64,000 nt of DNA from Lampris incognitus. Lineage: Eukaryota > Chordata > Actinopteri > Lampriformes > Lampridae. The notes beneath the pieces are model-generated. The model ran no database searches. It was not told where the DNA came from and saw only the letters and a list, made by a program, of their open reading frames with translations. The position numbers and the translations under genes are program-made. Where the stretch lies: the NCBI RefSeq assembly GCF_029633865.1, contig NC_079219.1, positions 52,599,121 to 52,663,120 on the forward strand. The letters are read 5' to 3'. The stretch's first letter is position 1. Each line of letters opens with the position of its first letter. Shown here in pieces: positions 7,538-45,158 of this stretch.

Positions 7538-9388
7538 TTACTCCCCAGCTCCACTTTAACCATCACTGAAAAATGAAATCCTAATGAACACACAACGACG
7601 CTCTGCCAGCCCTCTTTGGAAAATCTGTTTCGAGCGCTGTAAACGATTCAAGAAATGTTCAACAAAGGAAATATTTGGCACGGAATCAGATCTACTTCGC
7701 CTCCCCCGGCGTTGTGCAACGCGGCACAATCTTTGCATTGTTGTTTTCACGTTATGTTTTTGCTTTTTTTCGGGTGCTTTTTCACCTGAACTTTAACGCT
7801 TGCCCCAGAGAGAGATGCAAATGCCCAGAGAACATAATGGCTCCTTTCCTGTGTAAAAAAAAAAAAAAACAGGCAGTAAAGGCAAGGTAATTAAGGTTGT
7901 CATGACAACGGGGCCCAGCAGGCCCCGATGGTGCCACTACACTTGCATAACTTCAAACGGTATCAAAGCTCCGGACTACCAGGCCTGGTGCACGAGCTCT
8001 GGTTTGAATTAGAGACCAACTTCCACAGTCCCTCTTCAAATTCAAGATCAATATGGAACACCCCGTTCACAAAAAAAAAAAAAGGAGGGAAAAAAAAACG
8101 CCAGAATAAAAAGGGGAGAAAGGGCCCAACTAGTCCTAGTCCAGACAGACCTGGCTCTCTGGATTTCATTAGAGTCAATTATCTTATCTGTTTCATCTCA
8201 ATGCTGCCCCAAGGGCTGGCAGGCGGACCGGCCGGGTTCTTTGCAGTTTGAGAAAGCCTGCAGCCAGCCAGAGGCCTGCGGTCCGGGTCATTAAAACACT
8301 CTTACCCCTGCTGCTCACGATAAAATATTTTCATGCTTTTTGTCAATAGATTTTCCTCCTTTGGTTCCCACAGGACGTAAACATGCACAACTTGAACCCA
8401 AATTTTGTTTTCTCGATATGCAGCGATAAAGATGCAGTAAATTCAATATATTCGGGGCGTTGTTCTTCTCGTCGTTGATAAAGGCAGCCCCGTGATGTGG
8501 TCACCTGGTTACGCTGCATGCACAGAGTTTGGCTTATGCATTTTTGTCCTTTTTGCTGAAACAATGGGGAGAAATAAAACAGCCCAGATGATTTGAAGCA
8601 ACATTGTGGATTTTTTTTTTTTAATTTTTTTTATTAAGTCATTAAGACCTAGTGTGTACACAACAAATTGTGTATCAGTTGACCTCTGGTGCATCAATAC
8701 AAACTCAATTCCACCGTCATCTCCTCAAATGGTCTGGTAAGACACCCACGGGCAGTATTGTCACAAGACCAGCGTGATGAGATGTGATCCTTCATTCGCA
8801 CACAGGAAGAGACACTCGCTACAAGGCAGGATGAAAATGGACCCGGGATTTTAGATGTCTTCTTCTCGGCGATGGCTTGTTGGTGGTAGAGGTTGCAGCC
8901 AAATACTCGTGGTCCATCGCTCAAGACAAAAAAACATCTAAAATTATGCTTTTTTTTATCATGCCTCATACCGAGCCTCATTCCCTGTGCACATAGAAAC
9001 AATCGCGTCTCGTTCCCTCAATTGATAGAAAAATTACAACGTCGCTCCTTCATTTATTCATTCCCTGTGCACCCTCAGTTCCAGCAGGCGTTAAGTGGAC
9101 GGCAAGAGTACCGCCGTGCTGCGTCTCCAGTCCATTGCGGCCACTCTGCACTTGCTCTATGCAGGAGACGCGGGATAAAACGGGACGATTTAGGTAATCC
9201 GGCACAATTTTGCAGCTCCGGCACAGAGCTCAGAAAATAGGAGCCTTAATCAAGGAAAAGGGATGCCCCTGGAGCAGAATGGGGACTGGGCCGTGCTGGG
9301 GGGGGGGGGTGATTGGGGGTGGGGGTGGGTGGGGGTGGCAAGAGAGGTGCGTGAGGCCCAGGACCTTGAGCTGAAATAGAAAACCCTC
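7538..9388. other. No gene seen; spacer
   Basis: The DNA contains A-rich and T-rich runs (for example 7855-7870, 8071-8098 and 8609-8634) and a G-run at 9299-9310. No protein or RNA gene was recognised. Confidence 0.6.
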
Positions 9389-9515
9389 CTCATCAGGGGG
9401 CTGAGGGATCATGGGTAGAGAACTTCCCTTCATCACAGCCACGCTGGGAAATGCAGAGGACAGCGGGGTCAGCGCAGACGGACCACTGTGTGCCGTTGCC
9501 ATGACAAACATCCCA
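9389..9515 (-). pseudogene. Relic of an hdac9 catalytic exon (HGNGT active-site exon)
   Basis: Read on the minus strand from 9515, the DNA translates as WDVCHGNGTQW, then ADPAVLCIS, then DEGKFS and SAP. It aligns without gaps to the class IIa HDAC segment WDVHHGNGTQQ...DPS-L---S...D-GNF...AP, with about half of 39 residues identical. Decay is plain. The first histidine of the HH pair is cysteine and several core residues differ. After the SAP codons one extra T gives two consecutive TGA codons; skipping it restores D-E, the exact end of the exon in HDAC4. The donor position reads GA instead of GT, and the acceptor side has lost its AG. It lies about 33 kb downstream of the hdac9b stop on the same strand, where the catalytic exons belong. 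Confidence 0.8.
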
Positions 9516-14002: not shown

Positions 14003-14202
14003 NNNNNNNNNNNNNNNNNNNNNNNNNNNNNNNNNNNNNNNNNNNNNNNNNNNNNNNNNNNNNNNNNNNNNNNNNNNNNNNNNNNNNNNNNNNNNNNNNN
14101 NNNNNNNNNNNNNNNNNNNNNNNNNNNNNNNNNNNNNNNNNNNNNNNNNNNNNNNNNNNNNNNNNNNNNNNNNNNNNNNNNNNNNNNNNNNNNNNNNNNN
14201 NN
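14003..14202. other. Assembly gap (200 N)
   Basis: There are exactly 200 N bases, the usual placeholder for a gap of unknown size. Open frames running through it are meaningless. Confidence 1.
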
Positions 14203-20984: not shown

Positions 20985-21675
20985 ATGGGGAACGGAGTTG
21001 GTCCGGTGAGACGAGGAATGGCAACATTTCATCCCCCCGAGGCGTTTGAGTTCACGCAGCCGGCGGCATGGCCGATTTGGATTCAGAGGTTTTCCCGGTT
21101 TCCACTAGCGACCAAGCTAAATGCGGAGGACGGTGAGATCCAAGTCAATTCCTTGATATAGGCAATGGGGAAAGATGCAGAAGCTATTTTTAATTCATTT
21201 ACGTTCGAAGAGGCTTCTCGCGCTAGCGATGATGACAGGGTGGTCAGTAAGTTCAACGAGCATTTCGTACCACGGAGAAATGTCCTCCACGAACGTGCAT
21301 GTTTTCCCCAGCGCGCGCAGAGAGCTGGAGAGACTGTCGAGGCCTTTGTGAGGAGGAGTTTATATGAGGTGGCAGAACACTGCGAGTTCAGGGCATTAAA
21401 GGAAGTGCACATTCGTGATAGAGTTGTGATCGGAGTTGCTGACCGAGACGTGTCACAGCAGAAGTTGCAGATGGAGGATGAGCTCCCGCTAGGAAAAGCG
21501 GTGCAAATGGGCCCCCCCGTCAGTTCCAACTGGTTAAACAGCAAAACGCGGAAGGAATTACAGCTGAACTGAATGCAGTTAGCAAAGCACAGGGCGCCAA
21601 TACAAACCGCAACCGCCACAATAAGGGCAACGGAAACGCACAGCGGCCCAAAACAGCCTGCCCCCCATGTAATCG
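20985..21675 (+). pseudogene. gag of the Ty3/gypsy element, disrupted
   Basis: The frame from the ATG at 20985 has the gag-like pattern of a PPEAFEF...WPIWIQRF start and a downstream capsid-like region (FNEHFVPRRN, ERACFPQRAQ, VEAFVRRSLYEVAEHC). A TAG stop interrupts it at 21159-21161, and a frameshift near the C-run at 21511-21517 shifts the nucleocapsid part into another frame. Function is inferred from position and pattern. Confidence 0.8.
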
Positions 21676-21676
21676 C

Positions 21677-22310
21677 GTGCACGGGCAGCAGCAGCAGGAA
21701 TGCCCTGCACGCAACAGGCGTTGCAGGAAATGCGACAAGCTGGGACATTTTGCTGCCGTATGCAAAGCCAGAGACGTGAGGGAGGTCGTTCACCAGGGTG
21801 ATGCGTATGAGGGCGAAGCGGAAAGTGAAAGCAACCCCTACTTCCTCGGTTGCATAGAGGGGAAGGATTTTGAGAAAAAGTGGCAAGTGGAGTTACCGAT
21901 CTGCGGCAAGCTGGTTAATTTTAAAATCGATACAGGGGCGGACATCACTACCATGTCACAGACTGCATATACTAGGTCACTGCCTGAACGGCCACAGCTG
22001 GTTAAAACATCAATCGACCTGAGAAGCCCAGGGGGAGCACTGCAGTGTGCGGGGAAATTTGTGGCATGCACGGAGAGACGGGGGAAGATGCACAAAATTG
22101 GGATTTTTGTGATAAAAGGGCCAAATGCCAACAATCTATTGAGTCGCAGAGCTGCATGTGAAATGGGCCTAGTTTGTAGAACAGATCAGGTTAGCGAAGA
22201 TGTTTTCGGGGACATTGGATTGCTTAATTGTGAACCTGTCATGATTGAGCTTAAGCCCAATATACAGCCTTATGCCCTCAGCACGCCATGCAGGGTCCCT
22301 TTCCCTGCCG
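21677..22310 (+). pseudogene. Zinc knuckle and aspartic protease region of the Ty3/gypsy element
   Basis: The frame encodes a CCHC knuckle (C16-x2-C19-x4-H24-x4-C29), which binds RNA. It then encodes a retropepsin-like protease with FKIDTGADITTM, the DTGA catalytic motif. The frame is lost near 22293-22312, just before the reverse transcriptase. Confidence 0.85.
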
Positions 22311-24650
22311 AAGGTGGACGACGAGCTGCAACGCATGCAGTCCTTGGGGATCATCACAGAAGTGACCGAGCCCACAGAGTGGTGTGCACCCATGGTGCCC
22401 GTAGTCAAAAAGAACGGCAAGATACGGATCTGTGTGGACCTAAAGCGATTAAACCAGGCTGTTAAGCACGAGCGGTTTATGCTTCCCACGCTGGAGGACA
22501 TTATGCCCAAGTTAGCAGGGGCAGGGGTTTTTACAACGCTAGACGCATCGTCTGGCTTCTGGCAAATTCCGCTAGATCCCAGATGTGTAAAACTAACCAC
22601 TTTCATTACTCCCAGAGGCCGGTTCTGGTTCCAGCGGCTCCCGTTCGGCATCACATCGGCACCGGAGATCTTCCAGAGGGAAATGTGCATTCTGCTGAGA
22701 GACCACAAGGGCACGGTCGTCGTCATGGATGACATACTCGTGTACGGCAAGGACCAGGACGAGCACGATAGAAACTTGGAGGCGGTACTGCAGACAATCA
22801 AAACATCGGGGCTGAAGCTCAACCGGGAGAAATGCCGCTTCAGCAGGAGTGAGTTGCAATATTTCGGGCACATCATCAGCAAAGACGGCATCAAACCAGA
22901 TCCAGGCAAGGTGAAGGCCATCTCAGACATGCAGAGCCCCGAGAATGTCCCTCAGGTGAGACAGTGGCTGGGTATGGTAAATTATCTGGGGAGGTTTCTA
23001 CCCGAACTGTCATCAGTGCTACACCCGGTGAGTGAGCTGCTGAAGAAAGACGCAGAGTGGCAGTGGGGGGAGCCCCAACAGCAAGCCTTCACCAAGGTAA
23101 AAGCAATGTTGTCTTCCACTCCTGCCCTGGCATACTATGATGTAGCAAGGCCCACCATTGTGAGCGCGGACGCTAGTAGTTACGGGCTGGGGGCAGCACT
23201 GTTGCAGGTTCAGGGGGACAAAGTTCAGCCTGTTGCCTTCTGCTCCAGAACTCTCACAGATGCAGAGAAGAGATACTCTCAGTTAGAGAAGGAATGCCTT
23301 GCAGGGGTGTGGGCCTGTGAGCGGTTTTCCCGTTATCTGTTAGGCTTGGCTGAGTTTAGCTTACAGACAGACCACAAGCCCCTGGCCCCCCTCATTAATG
23401 CATATGATCTGGACAAAGTGCCGCCGAGATGCCAGCGGCTTCTAATTTGTCTAATGCGTTTTAACCCCAGAGCAGTGTATGTTCCGGGTTCACAGCTGGT
23501 GGTGGCCGATGCCCTTTCCAGGAACCCACTCCAGGACGGCCGCGGGGCAGACACAGACGGGGATATGCGTGCGCATGTCGAAGCTGTGATCGAAACCAAA
23601 CCAGTGTCGAGCACGAAGCTGGACATGTTAAAGCAGGCCACGCGTCAGGACGACACAATGCAGAGGGTGATCGGGTACACCAGAGAGGGATGGCCGAGGC
23701 ACGTGCCCTTTTATCTGCATGGCTACCACGCTGCGAGGGCATCGCTGTCCGAGGCAGACGGGCTGCTCCTGTACCAAGACAGGATTGTAATTCCCCCCGC
23801 GTATCAGGAAGACATCCTACACAGGATTCACGAAGGGCACCAAGGCTTTACAAAGTGTCGTGAAAGAGCCAGGATGTCTGTCTGGTGGCCCAGCATCGGA
23901 TCGGACATTTACCGGAAAGTTACACAGTGCACATTCTGCCAAATCAATAAGCCCTCACAGTACAAAGAGCCTCTATGTACAACACCACTGCCGCCCGGCC
24001 CATGGCACAAGATTGGGGTAGACCTTTGCGAGCAGGATGGAAAAAACTACCTGGTGGTGGTTGATTATTATTCCAGGGACATTGAGATCGCCCAGCTACA
24101 GACCACCTCCAGTCTACAGGTGATTGAGCAGCTGAAAGGTATGTTCGCACGATGGGGCGTCCCTGGAGAACTCATTAATGACAATGCCACACAGTTTACG
24201 TCAGCCGAATTTAGGCAGTTTTGTAGGAACTATGATTTCCGCCACACAGCACGCAGCCCCCACTTCCCCCAGGCAAATGGAGCTGCCGAAAGGGCCGTCG
24301 GGACGGCCAAAAGAATTTTGCGGCAGCCTGACCCTCACCTAGCGCTGATGTGCTACCGCGCCACACCAATTGCTGCCACAGGTGCGAGCCCCGCGCAGCT
24401 CATGACCGGCCGCCAGATCCGGACCAACATGCCTGTGCTGGAGAGGAAACTCCAGCCACAGCTCTTCGACCACAAGGAGGTGGAGAAGAATGACAGAAGG
24501 GCAAAAGAGGCTTATAAGTTTTTCTTCGACAGGAGACACTCTGCATGTGCCCTAACCGAACTGCACTCAGGCAAGAGAGTACGAGTCAAACTAGATGGAC
24601 AAAAGGGGTGGAACATGCCTGCAGTCGTGGCGAATCCCTCAGGGAACCAC
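22245..24650 (+). CDS. pol of the Ty3/gypsy element: reverse transcriptase, RNase H, integrase
   Basis: This is a long open frame (the open part extends to 24881, but homology ends near 24650). Numbering from the ATG at 22245, reverse transcriptase occupies about 25-235 with D100 and the D162-D163 pair in a VMDDILVYG context. RNase H follows at about 290-420 (D307, E346 or E348, D374). The integrase zinc region has H527, H530, C560 and C563, and the catalytic D591, D644 and E680 are spaced as D-D-35-E. The start codon given is only the first ATG in frame; in a working element this part would be made as a polyprotein. Frameshifts at both ends separate it from protease and from the pol C-terminus. 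Confidence 0.88.
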
Positions 24651-24907
24651 GCTCCTACATGGTGCGTACGGAAGACGGTGCTGTCTTCAGACGGAACCGC
24701 AGGCACCTGCAATCCGTGCCTGCCCCTGCAACTGTTGCAACCCAACCAGCCAGAGACAGCAATGACTTGCAGCAGGAACGACTCAGCCCACCGGTTGCCA
24801 CCTCATCGGGCACTCCCACGGAGCCGGACGTGCCAGCAAGGCCCTCTGGGTTCACCGTCACCTCCAGTGGCAGAGTTGTAAAACCCCCAAAGCGGTATGA
24901 TGTTTAG
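24651..24907 (+). pseudogene. C-terminal end of Ty3/gypsy pol in a shifted frame
   Basis: After a frameshift near 24645-24660, another frame continues with VRTEDGAVFRRNRRHLQ and ends GRVVKPPKRYDV before a stop at 24905-24907. This is the usual end of integrase in this group of elements. Confidence 0.75.
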
Positions 24908-33459: not shown

Positions 33460-35412
33460 TCAAGTCATGCTCAATGTTGAGCTTAGATCTGTTTTTGTTT
33501 TAAGTGAGGCAACACCAGAAAAGCCCATCTCACAGAGATAGGATGTGGTGCAGGGAAACAGAATCCCCACAGCCGTCTGTCCTATGAGTGGATACTCCCT
33601 CTCCACACCAAGCCAGAATTCATCCAGTGTCTGAGCTGTAAAGCTCAGCCTCAGGGTGGAGTCAGATGTCATCTCGATGAACTGGTCCTCTTCAGCAGAG
33701 CTGAAATCAGTAGGTGCTGCTGCATTGAATGGATCTGTCACCCATACACTGTTGTTTGGGAAGTATTTTTGAAAAAAATCCTCTCAGGGAAGAGATGTGC
33801 TCCTTAAGACATGAAATCACTGTAGTGGCTCCAGAATCACTGGTTTCAACAAATTCACTCAGATTCTCAAAGAAATCAGTATTTCCTTGATCAAGTCACC
33901 TGCCCCACAACTCAAACTTTTGAGTGAATGCACTGACCTTGTCTGCCAGGTGAGGACGGTGCTTGTCTCTGCCTTGAAGCTGAAGATTTAATTCATTCAG
34001 CTTTCCAAATATATCGCTGAGATAGGCCAGTTTCATCAGAAATTGTTCATCACTAAACTTGCTTGCAACTTCATGCATACGCTCCTCCTCCAGAAACACG
34101 CGAATTTCCTCTCTGAGCTCGAAGACTCATGCCAACACTACCTCGCTTGAGCCACCTAGCCTCGCTGTGAAAAAACACAGCTGAATGTTCAGCTCCCATC
34201 TCCTCACAAAGTGCAGAGAACAGCTGCGCTCTCAGGGATCTTCTTTTGATGAAATTAACCACGCTAACAACATCGGTCAAAACCTCGTTTAGGTCAGGGC
34301 TAATTTGTCTTGATGCTAGCGCTTCCCTGTGTATGACACAGTGCGTCCATTGGGCATTTTGCAAGACCCTCTTGATTAGTGCCTGCAATCCCTTCGTTTT
34401 CCCTGCCATGGTCTGTGCACCATCCGTGCAAATGTCCGCCCAGTTCTCCCATTTCAGCCCAGGTTCTGTCAGGTAACAGTCAAGAAGCCTAAAGAGCTCA
34501 TCAGCTGTCGCTCTACTCGGGACATACTTGCCAAACAGCAAATCCTCACACAGTGACTCTGAGGTGACAAAGCGAACCTATCCAATAAACAAGCAGTCTT
34601 TATTGCTGTCGTAGCCTTATCCACTTGTAAGGCAAAACGTTTGTCTTTCACTTTTTCAATGAGTTGTTCTTCAAGGTCATTTGAAATGTCACATATACGT
34701 CTTGTAACAGTATCATTGGACAGAGGGACAGCTTCAATTTTGCAGCGCTTGTCTCATCGAACATAGTTGACACCATATCTAAAGCTGCCGGAAGTATGAG
34801 CTCCTCTGCTATTTTGTGTGGTTTCTTGCACTGGGCAATTCTGTATGTGACTTTATGATGCCATTACTTCTTTGTTGTTCACTGACGCAGCTTTTACAAA
34901 GCAATGTTCCTGCTGATGGTATGCACCAAGTTTTCTCTGAAAGAACTCTTATTGACGTGCTGGCCGAGGTGGACACCCCGGCTTCAGAAAGTAAAAGTCC
35001 TACCATGTATTTGTTCTACCAATTCACTAAACAATTTCACTCTACCTGGCTGAAGAGTTGTACTAATTAAATTCAGCTGGTGCAGCGCATGGATGGAACA
35101 AATACATGGCAGGACTTTTACTTTCTGAAGCCGGGTTGTCCACCTGTGCATATTGGGGTGTATTGTCTCTAAGTGTCTTCTTAATTTATTTGGTCTCATA
35201 CTATCAGCTGCCAGAGTTTTCAGACATAAAATGCACACTGGTCTCTCCTCGTCTCCCACCACATTCACTGTGAACCCAAGAGCAAGATAGGCTTCGTCAT
35301 ATTTTCTTAACTTGGTTTTTGGTTGATTACCATCATCAGCTAAGCACCTTGTCTTGTTTGTCTCAGAAGCATCGCCTGTCTTTCTTTTCGTCCCTGTCAA
35401 ATATCTCTCCAT
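33460..35412 (-). pseudogene. Degenerate ZBED5-like hAT transposase
   Basis: It starts MERYLTGTKRKTGD and has a BED-type finger (C-x2-C...H-x4-H in CILCLKTLAADS...RRHLETIHP). After breaks it reads ADICTDGAQTMAGKTKGLQA, THCVIHREALASR and FIKRRSLRAQLF, then KFSDEQFLMKLAYLSDIFGK and near the end SYLCEMGFSGVASLKTK. This is the finger, catalytic core and C-terminal dimerisation order of hAT transposases. At least four frameshifts or stops are present. Confidence 0.85.
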
Positions 35413-35597
35413 TCTGTGAACCTACCAACTCTGTCTCATGAAAGCACATTTTGTTGATTCTTCCGCCGTGAAAAAGATTCTGAAGTCAAAACAGTAGTTC
35501 CGCACTACCCCCCCCCCCAGTTAGGCGTGCCCCCCGTCAAGCCTCTATGCCCCCCAGGGGGTGCGCGCCACACACTTTAAGAAATGCTGCCCTAGCT

Positions 35598-41184: not shown

Positions 41185-42722
41185 TTTATTAGACAATACA
41201 AATGAAACGGGAAGGTCTACAGCTATCAAATACACTTGATTGATCACTTTAAGACAGACTATACATGTCGCAATGGGCACTTTCAGGGGGGGGGGAAAGA
41301 GTCTCGGAAAGAGGAACCAAGGTCCCGTCCCACTTCTTCGTCTTCTTCTTTTTTGTTTTATTGAAGTAACATCAAACCTTCCATGTCGAGGTAAGCACGT
41401 CACTAGGGAATAAGAAGGAAGCGATTCCCTTTTAAAAAAGGGCTCCCTTAACCATATCCCCATTCACTTTGTAATTCGCCTTGACAGTAAATCAATTCTC
41501 GAGCCTGGCCCCTTGGACTCCTCCAGCCCTGGGTCCTCCTCTCCCAACATTCCTGTACACATGAATCACTCCGACTCCTGGCTTCTAGAAGGCATTTCCT
41601 GCCCGGCCCTCTCTCTCTCGCCTTCTCTCTCGCTCTCTCCCTCTATCCTCTCTCTCTCTCTCTCTGACTCCTCTGCTGAAAGCTGGACAGGAACCCGGCT
41701 GAGCTTTGATTTGGACCCGGAGGGAGCAGAGGGAGGCGAGCTCAGCTTAACACAAGGGCCCTGGCTCTGGGGTCGGCCCCTACAGACCCAGGAGATCTGC
41801 CGGAGATGCCTACACACCCAAAAGCTCAGATTTACCAGTGTTTAAGCCTCTCTACTGCAATATAAAGCAGCAGACTGTAGGTCAATAATGCAGTGCCACG
41901 GCCGCTGCAGTGTCTGTCATGAGGGCGTGTCCTCTGTTAGGGTTCTAAAGTGTACATTCTCTCTCAGACAGAGGTGAGCATGCTCTTTATTTTTTATTGG
42001 GTCTTTTTTTTTGTTTTTGTTTTTTTCTCCAATTCCGAGACCACTTCGACATAAAACATCATCACAGATTTTGGAGAATGACAGCGAATGTGATGTCTTG
42101 AAATTCTTTAAAAACACACCACGGGACCTGGTGATCATTTTCAGTGCTACCAGCATTCAAATAGTTTATGGCAAAAAAAAATAAAAATAAAAATAATCAT
42201 AATCATAATAATAAAAATGTACACAGTGGGAACATAAGTTGCCTTTTAAAAGCTGTGCGCCCGTTCAACTTCTCCTCCTCTAGAAATGATCTTTGATACT
42301 AAATCCACAGTTTATGTACATAAAACTCTTTCAGCAGACCGGCGACAACCAAAAGCAACCCTTAAAAAGATTAAACCGTCTTAAAATCTCTTCGTGTCAT
42401 TATTATTTACACAACGATGAAACATACTTTACAGAGATCACTACACAAAGTTCACAAGCGGAGAGTCCTAAGGTGAGAGGCGAGACTGGAGTCGAGTGAA
42501 AAAGGGTCACATCTTGTGGCAGGGGTAGGAGGTTGGCCTACTTTGTGCAATGGCTGCTGTGTGAGTGTGTGTGTATGTGTAGGTGCTGCATGAACAGTTT
42601 TCACCTGTGTGTGTGTGTGTGTGTGTGTATTTCTATGTAGTGTATGTGTGCGTGCACGCACATGTATGTCTAGCCTTGTCCTTCTGTGAATGTTGAAGTG
42701 TGGGATCTCATCCTCTCTCCTC
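41185..42722 (-). promoter_or_regulatory. hdac9b: Probable 3' untranslated region of hdac9b with candidate poly(A) signals
   Basis: Downstream of the hdac9b stop, the minus strand has AATAAA hexamers at 41998-41993, 41991-41986 and 41190-41185. The last of these is followed closely by an A-rich stretch. The segment has no coding signal on either strand and contains TG-rich and CT-rich simple sequence (about 42552-42660 and 41612-41665). The boundary is inferred from the hexamers only. Confidence 0.45.
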
Positions 42723-43058
42723 TCAGATCATGGCTCTTATCACCAGTCTTCCTTTCACCTGGTGAAGATAGGCGCTCTGCTCTGATTTTAGGCTCTGATT
42801 GGCCAGGGCCTCGTCCTCGCTGTCGGCCGGCTCCTCTTTGACCTTGATGACCCCGCGGTGAACCTCAGAGAGCTCCCCGTTGGAGCCGCCGCTGCTGCTG
42901 CTGCTGCAGCTGCTGAGGGTGTGCTTCCGGATAACGCCACCGGGGGGCAGCCTGTCCTCCTGCATGCTGTGCTCCAGGGGCCGCTGCTCTTCCTCTTCCT
43001 CAGACTCTTGCAGGTGCACGCTGGGCTGACGTAACTGCTCAATGGACTTGGAGAGCAG
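42723..43058 (-). CDS. hdac9b: hdac9b terminal coding exon with MITR-type read-through tail
   Basis: After a gttttgcag acceptor, 100 codons (43058-42759) follow HDAC9 through LLSKSIEQL, an acidic stretch, a serine run and [13 protein letters not shown] to SAYLHQ. At that point the DNA reads CAG|GTGAAA, a usable splice donor. Translation continues through it for 11 codons ([11 protein letters not shown]) to a TGA stop. Human MITR ends the same way, by reading past the donor into a short tail also containing a VI-K/R-x-x-I ending. In a full-length HDAC9, splicing at 42758 would lead to catalytic exons, and none is intact in this window. Confidence 0.93.
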   Translation of the reverse strand: MLSKSIEQLRQPSVHLQESEEEEEQRPLEHSMQEDRLPPGGVIRKHTLSSCSSSSSGGSNGELSEVHRGVIKVKEEPADSEDEALANQSLKSEQSAYLHQVKGRLVIRAMI

Positions 43059-45158
43059 CTGCAAAACACATTAGCGTAGTGTTAATAATGATGTGATAAA
43101 ACCAAATGAATTTTCCCCAATCAAACTTAGATTTCAGACGTGCAAACAAGATACCCGGTCCAGAAATGTGGCGACTAGGTTACAAGCGAAAAGCACCAGA
43201 ATTCATCCCAGTGCTCCAAGAAACATGAGAGCAGTCCTGTTTCACGTCCACAAAGACAATGTCACAGCTGCCACCTGAATATTCATGCAGTCGAGCCGGC
43301 CAGCCAACGCGGCCTGGCGGCTCCTTCAGCCATTAGGAACTGGAACAATTATTAAAACAGCATAAGGCTTATAAATGAGCGCTTCGCCAGCCAGTGTATC
43401 CAGCTGGGACCTGAACAACTTCTGTCTGCCTTTCTTGTACGAAGGATATAACCACAGACCTTTAAATAGCCACGCTCCATACAAATTCTGCTCCACAGTG
43501 AGCCGTAATTAACAATTCAAATCAAAAATACCTCGTTTTATTGCCTCTGTGTACATTTTATTAGGTCTTTTTTCGTATTAATATTTTGATCGTGTTCCAT
43601 TCCTTCGTTCCGGTTTTAAAACATTGAAAATGCTTCAGCGATACCTGAAATGAGAGAAGAACGGAGGGGAAACACTAACTTTCGCCGTTTTTACTGAGCG
43701 CCGCCTCTCTTTTCACTTACGTTGAATTATTTTGGGTGGCATGAAAGTCGAGTCGGGTCAGTTTTATTTGTGCAGCCCAACGTCACAAATTACAACGTAC
43801 GAAAATGTTAAAGTAAAATTGTGTTTTAAAGGGAATGAGGGCAAACTCCTATCCTCGTAGTAATGACTAAAATGTAGTTTCAACTCTTTTTTTGTATATT
43901 TCGTATCTTGCTGAATATCAAGACAGCATTAGACTAGACTACTCAACCAAAACAGTAGAACAAATTACTGACCGATTCAACAAGAAGAACCCCCAAAAAC
44001 AGACACGAACAGAAGGCATATTGGTGTAATTCAAAAACATCAGGACATCTGCACCACATCTTCATATTGCGTCACAAACACAAGCAAAGAAGTCTCTCAT
44101 GCCGATTCCCAAAAGCACCTGAGATTTACTGCTGCGCTCGACTTAAACGAAAAGGATGGGAATATTTTAGTGTGCTCAGAAACAAATCGAGACATGTCGG
44201 TTGTTGATGCAGTGAAAAGTGGGCGGTTATTGGCGTTATATTTGAGGTACTTGTCGGGACGTTGGCACACGTGGATTCAAAGCACGACTGGTTCCTCTGT
44301 GCAGGAGATTGGGGCATCAACCAGAAACGGTTGTCATGAAATAATTATCCTGCTGTGGAGAAAGGGCTGAAAAATAACACGCGGCAGCACTGTCAGAGAA
44401 TGTAGGCCTGATATAAATACCCCTTCACCGAAGAATTAGCCTCTTTAACCTGGAATTAGCAAATGCTGTTTTTACCCTCCTTCTTAAAACCCCTAAGCTT
44501 CTTCAAATTTCCATTAGTGCCCCCTGCTGTTGCAGGTACTGCAAGACATTTGAAAACTATCCCCCCCCCCCCCCCAGTGTCAAGCCCTGCACCACCCAAG
44601 GCCTCTGCTAGGAAATTAATTAGGGCAATGATTCAGAAATCCTTCTCAGCAAACACTGAGGGCTCATCCGTGATTAGTGACCATTTATAACCTCGACTTA
44701 GAGCAGCTTTAAACGCGATCTCATTGGGCCGTGCGATCACGGCGTCGCTCGTGTGTTTCCGGGCATGTTGTCCGTTTTGTTTCGCTGCACTTCGAACGTC
44801 ATACTGACCGCACGCTGCTTTTTCCAATAATGAACGGCTTTGGTTAGAGCCGATTTCAGCTGCTGGGGTTAGCTTAATTCATTAATGTTACGGCGGGGGC
44901 GGGGGGTGGGGACAGGAACAGAAATTAAGTGTTATATCAAACGTCACATCGTTAGGTACAACCCAGTAATGGCCCTGGCGCTTTGTATTTTTTTATTAAT
45001 GCTAAGTGAGAGCGGCACTTGAAGCCAGATCGACAGTTCCCATAGCCGCTTGCCGCTTCCGAGGCCGGAGCGCCGGGACAGATCCGTGTGTGAGCTCTAA
45101 CAATGCCGCCTTTCACAGTGTCTGCCACCACACACACACACACACACACCCACACCCA

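Follow-up and report, generated by a model that had tools for sequence, protein, structure and literature searches.

The hdac9b locus of the opah

The window, the whole 64,000-nucleotide stretch that was analysed, lies on the opah (Lampris incognitus) chromosome designated C12. It contains hdac9b, whose exons span 61246 to 42723 on the minus strand, and, further along the same strand, the relic of a catalytic exon. One twist1-like gene is located at C12:52594459-52594740, 13.8 kb beyond the relic and in convergent orientation; the relic thus sits between hdac9b and twist1, after the hdac9 exons. The features are as follows.

61246-60998, 60261-60085, 59098-58964, 58534-58418 and 51948-51811, minus strand: first five upstream exons of hdac9b (approximate ends; translated search)
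50804-50685, 48801-48649, 46590-46393 and 45894-45679, minus strand: remaining four upstream exons of hdac9b (approximate ends; translated search)
42723..43061, minus strand: terminal coding exon of hdac9b with a read-through MITR-type tail and stop (translation, protein comparison)
41986..41998, minus strand: two AATAAA polyadenylation-like motifs about 730 bases past the hdac9b stop (motif match only)
14003..14202, no strand: 200 N inside the hdac9b-twist1 interval, a gap or withheld stretch that could hide sequence
9513..9514, minus strand: former splice acceptor, GG against AG in five open paralogues (alignment)
9389..9512, minus strand: relic of the HDAC9 catalytic exon (DVHHGNGTQ...) (profile, whole-genome translated search, alignment)
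9387..9388, minus strand: former splice donor, GA against GT in five open paralogues (alignment)

The best protein match of the window gene is histone deacetylase 9-B of Lampris incognitus, 623 residues in length, and its upstream exons contain the Pfam domain HDAC4_Gln (E 5e-24). In the terminal exon, the former donor CAG/GTGAAA is read as coding, followed by a 12-residue tail and a stop. Mammalian MITR likewise ends by read-through at exon 12. The locus shows an end state, in which the read-through MITR-type end is the only C-terminus seen and profiles of exons 14, 15 and 17-24 reveal no intact catalytic domain downstream. Exon numbers here are our own count, taking the MITR-ending exon as 12; by this count the relic is exon 20.

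A decayed catalytic exon downstream of hdac9b

The relic is 124 bases in length (9512-9389, minus strand) and reads DVCHGNGTQWSVCADPAVLCISQRGCDEGKFS up to its frame shift. It matches the class IIa histone deacetylase exon that bears the DVHHGNGTQ motif, with the HH pair changed to CH and both ends aligned to five open exons of opah paralogues. The initial annotation had placed it at 9389-9515; sequence and coordinates were as described, with the exon proper confined to 9512-9389. A translated search of window 1-42,700, as proposed there, recovered the relic as a class IIa HDAC exon. The exon-20 profile, built from five opah paralogues and two human sequences, scored 23.1 bits on the relic; the next real match in window 1-42,700 reached 0.5 bits, and ten Markov-shuffled copies of the same region gave at most 1.4 bits. 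Across 319,902 bases of opah DNA, profile scores above 1.3 bits fell only on known HDAC loci or on the relic.

When the eel HDAC9 catalytic domain was searched against the whole opah genome, the relic was found at E 0.0023, the only one of 61 matches on C12. A PDB search with the relic retrieved HDAC4 (E 2e-4) and, over two stretches, HDAC6 (3e-9). Pfam PF00850 gave 16.2 bits, under its cut-off of 27.9, and the relic was not among the PF00850 matches at E 0.001. At the DNA level, the 501 bases that include the relic match the genome once, at the relic itself; no second copy was found at E 0.1.

In the five open class IIa genes of the opah, GAT is preceded by AG, and the last GAG is followed by GT. 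In the relic the acceptor is changed from AG to GG and the donor from GT to GA, in agreement with the splice-site losses reported in the initial annotation; the alignment also bears out the reported change of the first His of the HH pair to Cys. The last nine bases of the relic, CCTGATGAG, are identical to those of the C27 gene. When these matching ends are aligned, the relic is longer by a net 4 bases; the excess is 1 base when a 121-base exon is taken. With either alignment the reading frame is shifted and meets TGA TGA at the exon end. The two stops described earlier therefore stand, whereas the one-base insertion holds only for the 121-base cut. The leading W of the previously quoted 'WDVCHGNG' is not an exon residue. 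It is intronic; the open opah exons begin at D right after the acceptor, and the W of the open class IIa genes is supplied by the preceding exon. With both splice sites broken and a frame shift into two stops, the relic has the structure of a pseudo-exon.

Assignment of the relic to HDAC9

Eel HDAC9 is the closest sequence to the relic, with 19/32 identical residues, compared with 17-18/32 for ten other HDAC9s and 16-17/32 for five opah paralogues; these counts replace the figure of about 20 of 39 given previously. The relic reads DEG, as do all 11 of the HDAC9s compared, whereas the five opah paralogues read DDG or DNG. Among the 16 exons compared, ADPAVL occurs in eel HDAC9 and the relic only. 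Although these residues are of HDAC9 type, the margin over the paralogues is narrow, and it is the genomic place that settles the identity of the relic. Translated search and synteny confirmed that it lies on the same strand as the hdac9b exons and in the right order after them. Origin from a different paralogue, which had been named beforehand as the alternative, is not borne out by residues, place, strand or order. It is supported that the relic is a dead HDAC9 catalytic exon.

Five class IIa catalytic loci (C13, C14, C27 and two on C2) and no sixth emerged when the opah genome was searched with the catalytic domain of eel HDAC9. In a phylogenetic tree that included human HDAC4, HDAC5 and HDAC9, all five are separate from HDAC9 (support 100/96); the C13 locus joins HDAC5 (99/97), and the C14 and C27 loci join HDAC4 (94/95). 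Some residues had suggested the C13 paralogue as an "hdac9a", which was rejected on its grouping with HDAC5. The Q-rich exon is present at four opah loci, of which C12 alone is hdac9. Neither a second hdac9 gene nor an HDAC9 catalytic domain was found elsewhere in the opah assembly; the window gene is the only hdac9 found in this genome.

The two C2 genes, hdac7-like by elimination, are located at C2:44696450 and C2:131520023, about 87 Mb apart. Each of them adjoins a twist-like gene (C2:44740737 and C2:131502026, respectively), and the C14 hdac4-like gene also has a twist neighbor. Among the matches listed, no twist match was found near the hdac5-like (C13) or the second hdac4-like (C27) locus.

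The remaining catalytic exons and the level of substitution

Ten exon profiles (14, 15 and 17-24) were run over window 1-42,700 plus 10 kb below it, reaching past twist1. None of the nine other catalytic exons was detectable in this region: the best real score was below the best shuffle for each, save exon 15 at 2.8 against 2.7. Tblastn with HDAC4 and HDAC9 domains, over the window and 40 kb below, likewise returned exon 20 alone.

We simulated equal drift of the catalytic exons for eight others besides exon 20 (14, 15, 17-19 and 21-23); exons of opah hdac5 were used, set in random flanks, and the indel rate was assumed. Each of the eight was detected in 72-100 of 100 runs at K 0.2, in 37-81 at K 0.3 and in 10-49 at K 0.4; exon 20 itself reached 23 bits in only 4 of 100 runs at K 0.4. 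If the exons are treated as independent, the product of the single probabilities puts the chance that none of the eight is found at K 0.4 at about 0.03. Equal drift with all exons kept is thus improbable, and deletion of the others, or slower change in exon 20, must be added; the other catalytic exons were probably deleted or changed faster than exon 20. The former catalytic-exon interval contains a Ty3/Gypsy-like element (21162-24881, plus strand), whose long open frames encode reverse transcriptase, RNase H and integrase domains, and open frames at 33460-35421 (minus strand) resemble, by eye only, a hAT-type transposase relic. The element and the other transposon-like frames make deletion or overwriting of the catalytic exons plausible.

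At first and second codon positions that are invariant among the paralogues, the relic kept 48 of 68 bases with both ends aligned (K 0.37) and 47 of 68 in the shorter alignment (K 0.40). All eight invariant third positions were kept (7/8 in the shorter alignment). By codon position the substitutions show no sign of a coding pattern, in small numbers. For comparison, fourfold sites are identical at 37/73 in the C14-C27 pair and at 57/135 in the C2 pair, which corresponds to about 0.40-0.55 changes per lineage if both pairs date from the teleost duplication. Fourfold K between older paralogues is 0.93-1.6 in total over five comparisons, not much above the 0.80-1.10 of the younger pairs, so the sites are near saturation and the clock is rough. 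On this rough clock, the relic has diverged since the teleost duplication to about the level of synonymous sites, which fits early loss and neutral drift. Survival of the exon by itself was considered as proof of constraint and rejected, its divergence being near that of fourfold sites.

Distribution of the short form among fishes

The opah protein was searched against protein databases. The best 120 of 2,650 matches are all 557-640 residues in length and without the HHG motif. Osmerus and Polymixia are represented, as are numerous acanthomorphs; 11 of the entries are unnamed, and several species are repeated. The 12-residue MITR tail is identical in 114 of these 120 and differs by one residue in the other 6. 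Judged from these sequences, the near-constant read-through tail (42723-42773, minus strand) suggests a function of its own.

Because this search reached only proteins of up to about 1,040 residues, two further searches were aimed at full-length HDAC9, and in each of them the eel was the only teleost among the best 120 matches. In the search with eel HDAC9, the ray-finned fishes among the best 120 of 4,614 matches (lowest score 1,387 bits; gar 1,731) were Anguilla, gar, bowfin, reedfish and sterlet. Zebrafish and bonytongues are absent from all protein matches listed. The branch of the eel HDAC9 catalytic domain is 0.19, about 2.5 to 4 times those of gar, bowfin and reedfish (0.05-0.08). On this branch length, constraint may possibly be relaxed in the sole teleost seen keeping the domain.

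The initial annotation had spoken of decay "in this genome", which is too narrow: the best 120 matches, from smelt to acanthomorphs, are all of the short MITR type. As the listed proteins share this form, the loss is probably old and shared rather than opah-specific, and it probably fixed a short form that already existed. By parsimony, on gene models and the best 120 matches, the catalytic domain was lost before the smelt-acanthomorph split. In the open-licence literature, judged by titles and abstract openings, we found no report of HDAC9 catalytic-domain loss in teleosts.

DISCUSSION

We consider it probable that the relic is the decayed leftover of a lost catalytic half, and that the sole opah hdac9 became MITR-type through an old loss followed by drift. 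The window gene would then encode a short MITR-type repressor, in which the MEF2-binding, corepressor-recruiting N-terminal half is kept and the deacetylase domain is absent. Of the two hdac9 copies left by the teleost genome duplication, one would have been lost, and in the other the read-through MITR form would have become the sole form. The MITR tail may then have been retained, whereas the catalytic exons beyond it drifted until most had been deleted or overwritten by transposons, exon 20 presumably surviving by chance between hdac9b and twist1. In this course we infer the timing, the order of events, the neutrality and the deletion of the other exons. The relic had been put forward as direct evidence of how the catalytic half was lost; one exon, however, records neither the order of events, nor the first disabling change, nor what became of the other exons.

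The exon might also owe its survival to twist1. If its DNA was kept as, or within, a twist1 cis-regulatory element, the protein function would have gone while an enhancer stayed, leaving an exonic remnant. This is unlikely, although several observations point towards it. In the mouse, a 23 kb deletion of Hdac9 exons 17-20 with enhancers eTw5-7 lowered Twist1 fivefold in the hindlimb, and Hdac9 exons 18 and 19 lie in Twist1 enhancers (PMC6233932; also PMC9411924); conserved non-coding elements recruited from exons are known as well (PMC5728398). The relic is exon 20 by our own count, its match to the mouse numbering being an assumption. It lies 13.8 kb from twist1 and is the sole survivor of ten exons profiled, and the simulation makes equal drift with all exons in place improbable. 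However, its K of 0.37-0.40 is about equal to the fourfold-site level, and the surroundings of the relic show four E-boxes against a mean of 7.5. Within 600 bases of it there are no TFAP2 or TAATTA core motifs; since only about 0.3 of each would be expected, this absence says little. The scan for TFAP2 and LMX1B sites around the relic gave nothing above background and was set aside. Tested by itself, the exon-containing segment 4 of eTw-6 did not drive expression (PMC6233932). That these same bases act as a twist1 element, exon 20 having been left in the twist1 control region once its coding role was stripped in teleosts, is a doubtful proposition.

The two other readings have far less in their favor. 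If the catalytic domain had gone on coding in the opah lineage up to a fairly recent, independent loss, a relic that is still readable and nearly full length would be accounted for, yet we regard this as very improbable: the domain would have to have been lost separately in smelt, Polymixia, beryciform and percomorph fish, whose listed proteins are of the MITR type and share the same tail, and a young loss should leave several readable exons, as in the simulation at K 0.2. That the resemblance is due to chance, or that the relic is a copy strayed from some other HDAC gene, is scarcely credible. The match is short (32 residues) and PF00850 stays under its cut-off, but the score is far above the shuffles, the ends are exon-exact, the DNA has a single match in the genome, and the relic carries HDAC9-type residues in the right place, strand and order. 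The old loss followed by drift is the reading that we retain. On this reading, the MITR-type HDAC9 found in the listed teleosts reflects a lost deacetylase domain and not gene models that are incomplete, and the loss can be given a rough age. Fish that carry a MITR-type HDAC9 may be unsuited as models for its deacetylase function.

Dong 2010 reportedly deals, by its title, with exons left over after duplication. In the opah, a teleost, an exon has likewise been left over, next to a developmental regulator; here, by contrast, the host gene survives in part.

The closest likeness of the opah gene is to MITR/HDRP, the short form of HDAC9 (PMC7912504), which is the same gene with the N-terminal half and no deacetylase domain. 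There it is one isoform beside full-length HDAC9, whereas in the listed fish it is the form seen, and in the opah the catalytic exons are decayed or not found.

In mammals HDAC9 exons both code and regulate TWIST1, two roles that are confounded there and that have a bearing on craniofacial disease in humans; if the opah exon is constrained, it would offer a natural separation of the two. The exonic enhancers of TWIST1 within HDAC9, eTw5-7, share the synteny block with the relic and lie in neighboring exons (PMC6233932). The exons at eTw5-7 still code, whereas the opah exon is dead.
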